Assembly: GCA_000981645.1 (NCBI GenBank)
Contig: LAQC01000003.1
Coordinates: 69,104-128,255, forward strand
Direction of reading: 5' to 3'
Source of the DNA: Cryomorphaceae bacterium ASP10-05a
GTDB lineage: Bacteria; Bacteroidota; Bacteroidia; Flavobacteriales_D; Sanyastnellaceae
Length of the DNA: 59,152 nucleotides
Shown here: positions 43,275-48,121 of the stretch, in pieces
Numbering within the stretch: the first letter of the stretch is position 1
Layout of the letters: every line of letters begins with the position of its first letter
Made by a program: the position numbers and the translations under genes
Notes under the pieces: generated by a model
What the model was told of the DNA's origin: nothing
What the model saw: only the letters and a program-made list of their open reading frames with translations
Databases searched by the model: none

Positions 43275-43438
43275 ACTCTGGGGAATCAGATTAACTTTTA
43301 TCGCAGATAGGATAGTATCTGAAGTTATAAGCGCATTACATCTTAGCATCAAAGCAAAAGACAATTTACCCGTTCAGCCTGTGATAATTTAACCGTACAA
43401 TCAAGACCATAGCTAATCAGGCGTTTGTATTTTGTCTA

Positions 43439-43470
43439 AAACATTTTTTAGACTTGTCTAAAAAATGTTT
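43439..43470. promoter_or_regulatory. Perfect 15+15 bp inverted repeat, candidate MntR/DtxR operator
   Basis: AAACATTTTTTAGAC (43439-43453) and GTCTAAAAAATGTTT (43456-43470) are exact reverse complements around TT. The core TTTAGAC-TT-GTCTAAA has the size and symmetry of DtxR/MntR-family operators. It ends 9 bases before the -7 box, so it covers the -33 region. A further half site, GTCTAAAA, is at 43434-43441. Autorepression of the mntR-transporter operon by metal is the likely role. Confidence 0.7.
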
Positions 43471-43479
43471 TCCTTTCAT

Positions 43480-43506: not shown

Positions 43507-44169
43507 ATGAATTCGTTTACTGAAGAAAATTATTTAAAAGCCATTTTTAAGCTGAGCTTGGGAAGTAACAAAGATGTTTCTACGAATGCAATAGCGGAGC
43601 AATTAGATACCAGAGCTTCTTCGGTTACTGATATGATAAAAAAATTATCAGACAAAAAACTAGTGAAACATGTTAAATACAAAGGGGTTAGCTTAACTGG
43701 AAGCGGAAAAAAAATAGCAGTTTCCATTGTCCGAAGTCATCGATTATGGGAAGTTTTTTTGGCAGAAAAATTACATTTCAAATGGGATGAAGTGCACGAA
43801 TTTGCCGAAGAATTGGAACACATCAAGTCAGATGAACTAACAGAAAGATTAGATGCTTTCTTGGGATTCCCAAAGCACGATCCGCATGGAGATCCTATCC
43901 CTGATAAAGAGGGTAACATTAATAGACACAAAGATATTACTGTAGCAAATCTTAAGCTAAACGAGAAAGGTGTTATTGTAGGTGTAAAAGATCACTCTAA
44001 GAGTTATTTAAAATATTTAGAAAGACTTGATCTAATTCTGGGAACAGAAATTGAGGTAAAAGATGTTGTTGATTTTGACCTTTCGATTACCCTCTCAGTC
44101 AATGAGACATTTAGCGTAAGTATTTCAAATCAAGCAAGTAAAAACCTAATTGTTAAAAAGTTAAAGTAG
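43507..44169 (+). CDS. DtxR/MntR-family metal-dependent regulator
   Basis: 220 residues. Winged helix (about 1-70; ENYLKAIFKLS, STNAIAEQLDTRASSVTDMIKKL), dimerisation and metal domain (about 71-145) and a C-terminal FeoA/SH3-like domain (about 150-220). By comparison with Bacillus MntR, His79, Glu101, Glu104 and His105 match its His77, Glu99, Glu102 and His103, while Asp8 and Glu11 are replaced by Asn8 and Lys11. It should repress the transporter genes that follow when metal (Mn or Fe) is plentiful. It is 2 bases from the binding-protein gene. Confidence 0.9.
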   Translation: MNSFTEENYLKAIFKLSLGSNKDVSTNAIAEQLDTRASSVTDMIKKLSDKKLVKHVKYKGVSLTGSGKKIAVSIVRSHRLWEVFLAEKLHFKWDEVHEFAEELEHIKSDELTERLDAFLGFPKHDPHGDPIPDKEGNINRHKDITVANLKLNEKGVIVGVKDHSKSYLKYLERLDLILGTEIEVKDVVDFDLSITLSVNETFSVSISNQASKNLIVKKLK

Positions 44170-44171
44170 AG

Positions 44172-45110
44172 ATGAATAAAAAATATTTTTTTTCCGTTAA
44201 CCTGATAATTGGTCTAGTTTTATGTGCAACACTTTTTTCATGTCAATCTGAAACAACCGATACAACTGCCTCAAAAAAATTAAATATAGTTTCTACTACT
44301 GGAATGATTGGCGATGCTGTACACAACGTTGTTGGGGACAGTTCTGAAGTGATTACTTTAATGGGACCAGGAGTTGATCCTCATCTTTACAAGGTGACAC
44401 AAAGTGATATAAAGAAGTTATTGAATGCTGATGTCATCTTTTACAACGGCTTGCATTTAGAGGGGAAAATGGGAGAGATTTTGGATCAAATGAGTAAAGA
44501 AAAACCTGTTATTTCCGTATGTAGTGGTCTGTCTGAGAAACAATTAAGAGCTACTAGTGAATTTCAAGGGAATTATGATCCTCACATCTGGTTCAGTGTT
44601 CAAAATTGGACAGATGTTGTGGAGTTTATTGGTAAAAATCTCTCTGAAATTGATCGAGATCATGCTTCTTTTTATCAAACGAATACAGCAAAACATGTAG
44701 AGGAATTAACTTTATTACATGCGTGGACTACCGATAAAATTAAAACTATCCCTGAAAAACAAAGAGTATTAATTACTGCACATGACGCTTTTGGTTACTT
44801 TGGAAGAGAATATAATATGAAAGTGAAAGGGTTACAAGGTCTTTCAACAGCTTCTGAATATGGATTAAAAGATGTGACCAATCTGGTTGATTTTATTTCC
44901 GAAAATAAAATTAAAGCAGTGTTTGTTGAAACTTCTGTATCTGACAGATCCATAAAAGCAGTGATGGAAGGATGCAAAGCCAAAGGGCATAATGTTAGAA
45001 ACGGTGGAACTCTTTATTCTGATGCTATGGGAGAAAAAAACAGGCCTGAGGGAACTTACATTGGAATGGTAAAACACAATGTAACAACTATTGTTGAAGC
45101 CTTGAAATAG
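44172..45110 (+). CDS. Metal ABC transporter substrate-binding lipoprotein (TroA/ZnuA type)
   Basis: 312 residues. Lipobox Cys24 (CATLFSC), so it is anchored to the membrane. Metal ligands by family position are His71 (GVDPHLYK), His138 (YDPHIWF), His204 (TAHDAFGYF) and a late Asp (YSDAMG, about 287). A His-His-His-Asp set resembles TroA, which takes Mn and Zn; the Mn-selective PsaA has Glu at the third place. It delivers metal to the ABC permeases that follow. It is co-transcribed with the regulator. Confidence 0.9.
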   Translation: MNKKYFFSVNLIIGLVLCATLFSCQSETTDTTASKKLNIVSTTGMIGDAVHNVVGDSSEVITLMGPGVDPHLYKVTQSDIKKLLNADVIFYNGLHLEGKMGEILDQMSKEKPVISVCSGLSEKQLRATSEFQGNYDPHIWFSVQNWTDVVEFIGKNLSEIDRDHASFYQTNTAKHVEELTLLHAWTTDKIKTIPEKQRVLITAHDAFGYFGREYNMKVKGLQGLSTASEYGLKDVTNLVDFISENKIKAVFVETSVSDRSIKAVMEGCKAKGHNVRNGGTLYSDAMGEKNRPEGTYIGMVKHNVTTIVEALK

Positions 45111-45154
45111 TCTAATGACGGTTCTAAAAACCATTCGCAAAAAAAACAACTTTT

Positions 45155-45943
45155 ATGAATATCCAAGTAGATAACCCAGTATTAGAAGTTCATGACCTTA
45201 CAGTAAGTTACGATAAAAAGCCAGTGCTCTGGGATGTCGACTTTACTATTCCCTACGGAAATTTAGTAGGAATTATCGGTCCGAACGGTGCCGGAAAATC
45301 TACCTTGATAAAAGCCATAATGGGCCTTGTTCCAAAGGGGAGTGGTTATATAAAACTTTACGATGATTCATTAGACAGCGTAAGGCACAAGGTTAGTTAT
45401 GTGCCTCAACGAGAATCTGTTGATTGGGATTTTCCTGCAAGTGTTTTAGATGTTGTTTTAATGGGGAGATATGGTAAAAAGGGTTTATTAAAAAGAGTAT
45501 CAAAAAAAGATAAAGAAATCGCCTATGAAAGTCTGAAAAGAGTAAATATGCTCGATTTTGCTAGCAGGCAAATATCTCAACTTTCTGGAGGCCAGCAGCA
45601 AAGAACATTTTTAGCAAGAGCATTGGCTCAAGAGGCAGATCTTTACTTGATGGATGAGCCATTTGCCGGAGTTGATGCTGCTACTGAAAGATCTATTGTT
45701 GATCTTTTACTGGAGATGAGAAAAGAAGGTAAGACTATTGTTGTAGTTCACCATGACTTACAATCCGCCATCGATTATTTTGACTGGACACTTTTATTAA
45801 ATACACGATTAGTCGCTTCAGGCCCAACCGAAAAGGTCTTTACTACAGAATTACTGCAAGAAACGTATGGTGGTAAATTGACCTTATTATCTAAAATTGG
45901 TGATTTAATGAAAGAAAAGCAATTTCCTGCTAGGGAAAAATAA
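45155..45943 (+). CDS. Metal ABC transporter ATP-binding protein
   Basis: 262 residues. Complete ABC ATPase: Walker A GPNGAGKST, Q-loop in YVPQRESVDWDFP (a typical metal-transporter form), signature LSGGQQQR, Walker B LYLMDEPFAGVD and switch His in VVVHHDL. It energises uptake of Mn/Zn/Fe with the two permeases downstream. 44 bases after the binding protein, 2 bases before the first permease. Confidence 0.93.
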   Translation: MNIQVDNPVLEVHDLTVSYDKKPVLWDVDFTIPYGNLVGIIGPNGAGKSTLIKAIMGLVPKGSGYIKLYDDSLDSVRHKVSYVPQRESVDWDFPASVLDVVLMGRYGKKGLLKRVSKKDKEIAYESLKRVNMLDFASRQISQLSGGQQQRTFLARALAQEADLYLMDEPFAGVDAATERSIVDLLLEMRKEGKTIVVVHHDLQSAIDYFDWTLLLNTRLVASGPTEKVFTTELLQETYGGKLTLLSKIGDLMKEKQFPAREK

Positions 45944-45945
45944 TA

Positions 45946-47265
45946 ATGTGGTTATTTGAACAAATAGTAGAGTTCTTTTCTTTTCAAGATGTCAATATTC
46001 GTTATGTGGCACTGGGAACACTATTACTCGGAGCAAGTTCCGCAGTAGTAGGCTGTTTTACATTTTTAAGAAAAAAAGCATTGGTTGGCGATACAATTGC
46101 CCACTCGATCCTTCCTGGTATTTGTTTAAGTTTTATTATTTTCAAAACCAAAGATCCGTTAATGTTGTTGCTTGGTGCAATGCTTTCTGGTTGGCTGTCA
46201 GTTTATGTCGTTGATTATATTTCAGCCAATTCCAAAATTAAACCTGACACAGCCATAGGACTTACGCTATCCGTATTTTTTGGTGTTGGTATTCTATTAT
46301 TAACACACATTCAACATTCGGGAAATTCAGCTCAAGCAGGGTTAGATAAATTCTTGTTCGGAAAAGCAGCTTCATTAGTTCAAAATGATGTGATCACTTT
46401 TGGCATCGTTAGTGTGATTTTGATAGGTACGATCATCCTCTTTTTTAAACAGTTTTCTTTAATTTCTTTTGATGTCCATTTCGCTAAAACAATTGGACTT
46501 TCTGTTAGAACCTTTGAGGTAATTCTTTCCACTATTACTGTTTTGGCTGTCGCTATTGGTATCCAAACTGTTGGCGTAGTCTTAATGGCAGCCATGTTAA
46601 TTACACCGGCAGCGGCAGCGAGGTTCTGGACGGATAAGTTAAAGGTAATGGTAATCATTGCGGCTATTATTGGAGGGGTTTCAGGAATATTTGGAGCTTT
46701 TATTTCTTACACAGCACCTTCTATGCCAACCGGACCATGGATAGTTGCAGTTTTATCATTTATTGCAATTGGCTCTATGTTGGTGGCTCCTAAAAATGGG
46801 GCGATCTCAAAAAGCAGAAAACAAAAGAAAAATCAACGGAAAATTCTAGAAGACAACATCATAAAACTCTTGTATAAATTGGGTGAAAAAGAAAATGAGT
46901 TCTTTAAAAATCGCTCAATTAGAACCCTTAAAAATTACAGAGAATACCCAGAAAAGAAACTTTTAAAAGGGTTAAACATTTTAAAGAAGAAAAACCAAGT
47001 GGTACTTGTAAATGATTTATGGGTGTTGACCGAAGAAGGCAAAAAAGCTGGAATGAGAGTTGTTAGAATCCATCGATTGTGGGAGCTTTATTTGACAACA
47101 TATTTACGGATTGCCCCTGATCATGTGCATGAAGACGCAGAAACGATAGAACACATTATTACACCAGAAATGGAGTCAAAATTAGAGCACTTATTAGATT
47201 ATCCTGAAAAAGATCCTCACTCCGCTAACATCCCCTACAAAAACGAAAAGGATATTAATGAGTGA
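45946..47265 (+). CDS. Metal ABC permease fused to a DtxR/MntR-like repressor domain
   Basis: 439 residues. Residues 1-285 are an ABC-3 family permease with about eight to nine helices (RKKALVGDTIAHSILPGI, IQTVGVVLMAAMLITPAAAARFWTDKL). A basic linker (KSRKQKKNQRK, 289-299) joins a DtxR/MntR-like region (about 297-439): a winged helix, then VRIHRLWELYL and HVHEDAETIEHII. Asp303, His376, Glu399, Glu402 and His403 match five of the six MntR metal ligands; the sixth (Glu11) is Ile306. Chlamydial YtgCR has the same architecture and releases its repressor by cleavage. Whether cleavage happens here is unknown. Confidence 0.88.
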   Translation: MWLFEQIVEFFSFQDVNIRYVALGTLLLGASSAVVGCFTFLRKKALVGDTIAHSILPGICLSFIIFKTKDPLMLLLGAMLSGWLSVYVVDYISANSKIKPDTAIGLTLSVFFGVGILLLTHIQHSGNSAQAGLDKFLFGKAASLVQNDVITFGIVSVILIGTIILFFKQFSLISFDVHFAKTIGLSVRTFEVILSTITVLAVAIGIQTVGVVLMAAMLITPAAAARFWTDKLKVMVIIAAIIGGVSGIFGAFISYTAPSMPTGPWIVAVLSFIAIGSMLVAPKNGAISKSRKQKKNQRKILEDNIIKLLYKLGEKENEFFKNRSIRTLKNYREYPEKKLLKGLNILKKKNQVVLVNDLWVLTEEGKKAGMRVVRIHRLWELYLTTYLRIAPDHVHEDAETIEHIITPEMESKLEHLLDYPEKDPHSANIPYKNEKDINE

Positions 47266-48121
47266 TTTTTGGATCATATTAACAGGCTGTTTGGCTTCAG
47301 TTTCCTGTGGCCTATTGGGCTGCTTCCTTATTCTCAGACAAATGGCAATGGTTGGAGACGCTATTTCTCACGCTGTATTGCCGGGAATTGTCATCGCTTT
47401 TTTATTTTCTGGTTCTTTGGATTCTGTGCCAATGTTAATCGGTGCCGCTACTTTTGGGGTGATTACTACTTACCTTATTGAACTCTTTAACAAAAAAGGA
47501 GGCTTACAAAAAGATGCTTCCATCGGAATCACATTTACCTGGCTATTTGCTATTGGGGTCATACTTATATCGCTTTACGCCGATGATGTGCATATTGACC
47601 AGGATTGTGTTTTGTTTGGAGAGATAGCTTATGTGGCGCTTGAACCGCTTGTTTCGTACATTCCAGGGCTAAGCGCACCATCAACAGTTTGGGTTTTATT
47701 TATTGTTATGCTACTAATTATTGCGATGATAATTTTTGGTTACAAAGGATTGTTCTTAACCACATTCGATCCTTCTTTTGCTGCTGCAATTGGGGTGTCA
47801 ACAGTGGTGTGGCACTATTTATTGATGAGTGCCGTTTCGGTGACTACGGTGGTTTCTTTCGAATCGGTAGGAGCAATATTGGTAGTTGCCTTATTAATTG
47901 CACCAGCTGCAACTGCTTATCTAATTACTGACAAATTGCCTAAAATGCTCGTCATTGCGGCTTTGGTTGGTGTTATTGCTTCTTTTGGTGGTTATTATTT
48001 GGCGGTTTGGCTCGATGCCTCTGTGGCTGCAGCTATTGCATCCGTTCTCGGTATTGAGTTCACCCTCGCATTTCTATTCTCTCCACAAGATGGAATAATT
48101 ATTAAACGATTAAGGAGATAA
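47258..48121 (+). CDS. Metal ABC transporter permease (second subunit)
   Basis: 287 residues of the ABC-3 family, with eight to nine membrane helices. LRQMAMVGDAISHAVLPGIVIAF, ESVGAILVVALLIAPAATAYLITDKL and SPQDGI near the C-terminus are typical. It carries no extra domain. It overlaps the end of the fused permease by eight bases, so translation is coupled. The two permeases likely form a heterodimer. It is the last gene of the operon. Confidence 0.93.
   Translation: MSDFWIILTGCLASVSCGLLGCFLILRQMAMVGDAISHAVLPGIVIAFLFSGSLDSVPMLIGAATFGVITTYLIELFNKKGGLQKDASIGITFTWLFAIGVILISLYADDVHIDQDCVLFGEIAYVALEPLVSYIPGLSAPSTVWVLFIVMLLIIAMIIFGYKGLFLTTFDPSFAAAIGVSTVVWHYLLMSAVSVTTVVSFESVGAILVVALLIAPAATAYLITDKLPKMLVIAALVGVIASFGGYYLAVWLDASVAAAIASVLGIEFTLAFLFSPQDGIIIKRLRR

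Follow-up and report, generated by a model that had tools for sequence, protein, structure and literature searches.

Within the window (the whole stretch of 59,152 nucleotides that was analysed), one permease of a metal importer is joined by a five-residue turn to what is, in the predicted structure, a complete DtxR/MntR-type fold (aa 286–430), and a separate MntR-type repressor is encoded in the same gene string. The best explanation, to which we give a probability of about one in two, is that repression of the operon falls to the free MntR and that the fused domain serves as a tethered sensor of metal, which most likely feedback-inhibits transport. The free MntR would bind the palindrome at 43438–43471 and repress the operon when metal is plentiful, and the fused DtxR domain would have given up DNA reading and kept the sensing of metal. 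Held beneath the membrane by a short helix, it would bind metal from the cytoplasm and change its fold in response, which would most likely keep the importer at rest (feedback or trans-inhibition). Control of transport by the fused domain is what we infer from the predicted anatomy and the pattern of conservation.

The features on which the analysis draws are, in window coordinates:

43438–43471, no strand: putative operator with 16-bp perfect arms and a 2-bp centre, AAAACATTTTTTAGAC-TT-GTCTAAAAAATGTTTT, 35 bp before mntR
43507–44169, plus strand: free DtxR/MntR-type repressor, 220 aa (PF01325 1.8e-15, PF02742 8.8e-32, FeoA 1.3e-10)
44172–45110, plus strand: metal-binding lipoprotein (substrate-binding protein, SBP) of the TroA/YtgA/MntC type (PF01297 1.9e-80)
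45155–45943, plus strand: ABC ATPase of the metal importer (PF00005 4.8e-31)
45946–46785, plus strand: permease part of the fusion, aa 1–280, C-type ABC-3 (PF00950 5e-65)
46801–46893, plus strand: linker helix and DtxR alpha1 of the fusion, aa 286–316, with N304 and K307 (from the model)
46912–47037, plus strand: winged helix of the fusion, aa 323–364, fold kept and sequence unconserved
47056–47235, plus strand: metal-binding/dimerisation part of the fusion, aa 371–430 (PF02742), near-invariant in 75 fusions
47258–48121, plus strand: second permease, D-type, without an extra domain (PF00950 8.6e-53)

The five genes form one plus-strand string in the order mntR, SBP, ATPase, fused permease and second permease (43507–48121), with an 8 nt overlap between the fusion gene and the second permease gene. 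The string holds a TroA/PsaA-like SBP, an ATPase and ABC-3 permeases, the components by which Mn/Fe (TroA/PsaA)-type ABC importers are recognized, and by these matches the importer is of the Mn/Fe type within the Tro/Ytg/Psa group, with its exact metal putative, because the SBP matches TroA and the permease matches 7kyo/7kyp. The closest solved structure to the SBP is Treponema TroA (1toa, E 5.5e-73), with which its three His and Asp ligand positions align, and we take these to be metal ligands; that to the permease part of the fusion is the Mn ABC permease 7kyo/7kyp (1.4e-36 for 7kyo). The ATPase scores 1.7e-73 against the NCBIfam model for Mn/Fe ABC ATPases, which is under that model's cut-off. 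Scans of the locus for promoters and terminators returned nothing useful. A third DtxR-type protein lies elsewhere in the window's genome (G000:C4:1724-1948, an open frame of 236 aa).

The free copy (43507–44169) has the features of an ordinary DtxR/MntR repressor, namely PF01325 and PF02742 domains and a conserved upstream operator. Its domains follow the order DNA-binding, metal/dimer and FeoA/SH3, and its best PDB match is the Mn repressor 5zr4 (5.1e-39). The repeat placed by the initial annotation at 43439–43470 is indeed present, as the inverted repeat at 43438–43471, and its 22-bp core TTTTTTAGACNNGTCTAAAAAA finds its sole exact match in the genome at this site. The motif TTTAG-N6-CTAAA, which in the window forms the core of the repeat with the 16-bp arms, precedes mntR without mismatch in 19 of 45 homologous loci, where shuffled sequence would give about 0.06, and mostly lies 30–56 bp before the mntR start. 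We did not find it upstream of mntR in the Pontibacter-type loci (L037–L100), where the operon promoter or the operator may lie elsewhere; the recognition helix of the free MntR in these loci is unchanged despite the missing operator. From its protein family and the conserved operator, the free MntR is predicted to repress transcription in the ordinary metal-dependent way.

The fusion itself is an open reading frame of 439 aa (45946–47265), in which Pfam matches ABC-3 at aa 18–280 (E 5e-65) and Fe_dep_repr_C (PF02742) at aa 362–430 (E 1.1e-23), and in which the Pfam scan gave no match to the DtxR DNA-binding family PF01325. An AlphaFold2 model of aa 290–439, built with 36 natural relatives, has a mean pLDDT of 90.6 and contains all DtxR elements (alpha1, the helix-turn-helix, the two-strand wing and the metal/dimer helices), and its top Foldseek matches are the Mn repressor DR2539 (with and without DNA), followed by ScaR, SloR and IdeR. 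The initial annotation had described a permease with a C-terminal winged helix and a DtxR metal/dimer domain and had called for a fold prediction as a check; Pfam, for the metal/dimer domain, and the predicted fold, for both parts, bear the description out, and with a DtxR fold in the model (pLDDT 90.6, Foldseek) the claim survives on this point. The FeoA/SH3 domain of the free MntR is absent from the fused copy.

In the full-length model the last transmembrane (TM) helix spans aa 262–280 and a continuous helix at aa 286–316 runs on through alpha1 (block pLDDT 92–94), with only residues 281–285 between the two and no disordered tether between permease and DtxR domain. The turn residues are conserved (P282 in 72 and G285 in 74 of the 75 fusions). 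Since only these five residues precede a confident helix, the coupling of the domain to the membrane is short and apparently rigid in the model, rather than a floppy tether. An internal translation start that would yield a free repressor was sought and rejected, with no ATG within aa 278–370 and nothing convincing among GTG and TTG codons.

The fused domain seems well equipped to bind metal. The metal/dimer part carries H376, E380, H395, E399, E402, H403, D423 and H425, and among the 75 fusions H376, E380, H395, E402, H403 and H425 are kept in all 75, D423 in 74 and E399 in 73; we take these positions to be the metal ligands of MntR, ScaR, SloR and DtxR. The initial annotation had counted five of six MntR ligands, and of these H376, E399, E402 and H403 are present; its fifth, Asp303, is not the equivalent of Asp8. 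In HMMER alignments (the one to SloR made from the 36-sequence fusion profile), D303 pairs with the Glu that precedes the MntR Asp8 position, and N304 pairs with the Asp of the ScaR/SloR motif 'EDYLK'. Position 304 is Asn and position 307 is Lys in 75 of 75 fusions, so that N304 and K307 occupy the MntR Asp8 and Glu11 positions in the fused copy as N8 and K11 do in the free one (N8 in 96% and K11 in 100% of 45 free MntRs). The earlier description of a free MntR-type regulator with Asn8 and Lys11 in the same operon is therefore accurate (43507–44169, in the same gene string). The idea built on it, that the two sensors have complementary ligand losses, goes back to a one-residue misalignment and is ruled out by the alignments of the fused and free proteins: both lack one identical pair of ligands, so there is no complementarity. 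Also kept are the second-site residues E380, H395, D423 and H425, which were missing from the earlier ligand list, and the alignments show every other metal ligand intact in the fused as well as in the free protein. The suggestion that the fused domain could sense the metal being imported is supported to the extent that its conserved ligands predict an ability to bind metal.

Conservation of the DNA-reading part follows a different course. Across the 44 loci that hold both fused and free genes, the pairwise identity of the winged helix (aa 323–364) is 37% in the fusions vs. 62% in the free MntRs, and that of the metal/dimer stretch is 75% vs. 78%, for an interaction between copy (fused or free) and part (winged helix or metal) of 0.22 (95%: 0.09–0.34). 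The split recurs in both halves of this set: the fused vs. free values are 53 vs. 81% for the winged helix and 90 vs. 89% for the metal/dimer part in the 22 Pontibacter-type loci, and 33 vs. 55% and 70 vs. 74% in the 22 other loci. For the recognition helix alone (approximately aa 335–348 of the fusion) the identities are 39% for fused and 71% for free copies, and in the 18 loci with an exact operator they are 42 and 66%; the conserved operator together with this last pair of values indicates that the operator goes with the free protein. PF02742 matches 36 of 36 fusions and PF01325 none of the 36 (E 0.01), with PF01325 matching all 7 free MntRs scanned, so the fused winged helix has the fold but not the sequence signature of a DtxR-type DNA reader. 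From these comparisons, the fused copy probably no longer reads DNA, and it is therefore more likely to throttle the importer than to switch genes.

This relaxation is selective. That the fused winged helix is decayed noise is ruled out by the fold predicted at pLDDT 90.6 and by purifying selection, which acts on it between close relatives. The fused winged helix is also more basic than the free one (+4.8 vs. +2.0) and may make weak or non-specific contact with DNA or with the membrane. The fusions have near-invariant residues that differ from free MntR, namely E314, R332 (91%), R371 (97%), H393, T406-P407-E408 and E410, and the absence of R332, R371, H393, T406-P407-E408 and E410 from the free protein points to a second function under selection.

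The fusion is not confined to the window's genome, a possibility that relatives from a scan of genome contigs rule out. The profile scan returned 79 loci, of which 75 usable full-length fusions, including the window's, form the alignment set (41–86% identical over the best segment), and a search of other Bacteroidota, proposed at the outset, has thus found about 75 relatives. Nearly all belong to Bacteroidota (Pontibacter, Chitinophagales, Saprospiraceae, Cyclobacteriaceae); one relative is labelled Ignavibacteria and another Kapabacteria. Of 395 genomes sampled evenly across the phylum, 27 have, among the matches listed, a fused frame of at least 420 aa at E ≤ 1e-25. Sampling of 113 relatives from the window's GTDB family, three of them from the same genus, gave no fusion: they have unfused permeases or none, which leaves the window's genome as the sole one with it in that family. 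Such a distribution suggests that the operon was either horizontally acquired or widely lost in the family.

Nineteen genomes were examined with PF02742, and 16 of the 17 that bear a fusion also have a separate DtxR protein (220–292 aa), so the repressor job is already filled. No free DtxR was found in the remaining one (G114, locus L073), which, provided its assembly is complete, would have the fused copy as its sole DtxR-type sensor. The free gene is not adjacent to the fusion in many loci, and fused and free DtxR domains form separate, well-supported clades. We advance tentatively, at slightly less than even odds, the broader proposal of a Bacteroidota-wide conversion of a DtxR repressor domain from DNA-binding regulator to allosteric metal gate in an ABC importer.

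Permease–DtxR fusions are usually read through the chlamydial example, that is, as repressors stored on the transporter. Applied to the window, this would make the C-terminal domain a second repressor of the operon beside the free MntR, either cut from the permease or still attached to it, which we consider unlikely. The likeness to Chlamydia trachomatis YtgCR drawn in the initial annotation is confirmed as regards architecture, with an ABC-3 permease and a C-terminal DtxR domain in one polypeptide, conserved metal residues and a four-part operon of SBP, ATPase, fused permease and second permease. YtgABC(R)D has the same gene order with one of its two permeases fused, and in YtgCR, too, an ABC-3 permease continues into a DtxR domain of some 139 aa (compared by description, not by sequence), so that the fused domain has about the length of the functional C-terminal 139 aa of YtgC (PMC6504234). 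The chlamydial protein binds DNA and represses (PMC5599777, PMC6504234), its cleavage has been described (PMC5599777), and the model of a released or tethered repressor has experimental support in Chlamydia (PMC5599777, PMC6504234, PMC7755916). The intact DtxR fold of the model and the basic winged helix would also suit a repressor. Against this stand the unconserved recognition helix and wing where the operator is conserved, the failure of PF01325 to match any of the 36 fusions, the near-constant presence of a free MntR (16 of 17 genomes), the short confident linker helix with no disordered stretch, and the lack of an internal Met codon at aa 278–370. The two systems also differ in their regulators: in Chlamydia no iron-dependent regulator besides YtgR has been identified (PMC6504234), whereas the window's operon includes an MntR that stands apart from the fusion, along with a conserved operator. 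Of the two-tier or membrane-tethered control first suggested, the arrangement of two sensors on one transporter therefore stands, and the tethered or released repressor is weakened.

Other relatives place the fused copy in a similar light. Treponema TroABCDR, whose TroA is the best solved relative of the SBP, links TroABCD to the DtxR-type TroR, which is a separate protein, whereas the window has separate and fused DtxR copies. The free Mn-responsive members of the DtxR family (ScaR, SloR, DR2539 and MntR) share the fold and the primary and secondary metal-site residues with the fused copy, which differs in having Asn and Lys at Asp8/Glu11, no FeoA/SH3 domain and an unconserved recognition helix. 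For an importer that senses its own substrate, the nearest precedents are MetNI and ModABC, in which a small cytoplasmic substrate-binding domain on an importer subunit stops import when substrate is abundant (PMC10710835); the summary of the trans-inhibition mechanism in that paper does not mention DtxR. The likeness to MetNI and ModABC (ModBC) is that of an importer subunit with a substrate-binding domain attached on the cytoplasmic side, but there the domain sits on the ATPase, has another fold and has been demonstrated to inhibit, whereas in the window it would be a DtxR fold on one permease, with inhibition as our inference. In the first class of fusions only one permease carries the domain, so that dimerisation of the sensor would call for two transporters or another partner.

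A metal relay or buffer, in which the domain catches ions leaving the permease and passes them on or limits free metal without any gating, would fit the two near-invariant metal sites, the relaxed DNA reading and the position directly after the last TM helix. We regard it as quite improbable, since the whole DtxR fold, winged helix included, is under purifying selection that a simple buffer does not need, and since DtxR-type sites bind metal in the micromolar regulatory range.

That the fused domain instead heterodimerises with free MntR at the membrane, tying repression to the abundance or state of the importer, appears very improbable. The two proteins do have a dimerisation fold and a ligand set in common, their genes lie in one string in the paired loci, and the single fused permease of each class-1 operon leaves a dimer partner free, but the fused and free domains have their own conserved residues in their separate clades, and in many loci the free gene is elsewhere. 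Just as hard to credit is a leftover domain that dimerises only to stabilise the importer, without sensing, for which the relaxed winged helix and the existence of unfused C-type permeases (L005–L009 in the window's family, and L106), which shows that the domain is dispensable for transport, can be cited, since metal ligands kept at 97–100% are unneeded by a mere scaffold.

The architecture is already known from 11 phyla (Thompson et al. 2012, as cited in PMC5599777). We found no description of a fusion that coexists with a free MntR and its conserved operator, of a relaxation confined to the DNA-reading part, or of a class of fusions on the D-type permease. The literature searched contained no published DtxR domain gating an ABC importer and no Bacteroidota fusions, which is weak evidence as subscription papers were mostly outside it. 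Taken together, the comparisons suggest that a large group of free-living bacteria use the fused domain to sense metal and not to read DNA. If feedback inhibition by the fused domain is true, it would add a new kind of feedback to ABC metal import and put a classic repressor fold to a new use, with one fold controlling both transcription (as free MntR) and transport (as the fused copy) in the same operon. The comparisons also raise the question for other phyla, Chlamydia included, of which fusions still read DNA.

Sensor domains are joined to both permease types. A second class consists of six fusions (L125–L130, for example L126 2265-3758 and L128 2369-3637) with the DtxR domain on a D-type permease; in the permease tree they group with the D-type second permease (support 100), and in the regulator tree a branch (99/99) separates every fused row from the free ones. 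These two placements imply that the domain was fused twice or moved between permeases, and the history would be either two fusion events or one fusion followed by a swap. The canonical Asp ('ED..K') is kept in 5 of the 6 class-2 fusions, L130 having been left out of the scoring, and L125 has a FeoA tail that passes the Pfam cut-off, L126 a weak one. In L128–L130 a look next to the ATPase gene turned up no second permease; a homodimeric importer there would put two sensor domains side by side.

Two further arrangements were seen at the margins of this collection. L125 (1807-3291) is an orphan permease–DtxR–FeoA fusion with no SBP or ATPase gene found in the surrounding 5.5 kb, and its neighbours, judged by eye, are a formiminotransferase-like gene and a sodium/solute symporter-like gene. 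Two Chloroflexota permeases, one C-type and one D-type (L109 5851-7167 and L111 3928-5223), appear by eye to end in a winged-helix-like remnant without the metal/dimer domain, for which Pfam gave no confirmation; this pattern is the reverse of the erosion seen in Bacteroidota.
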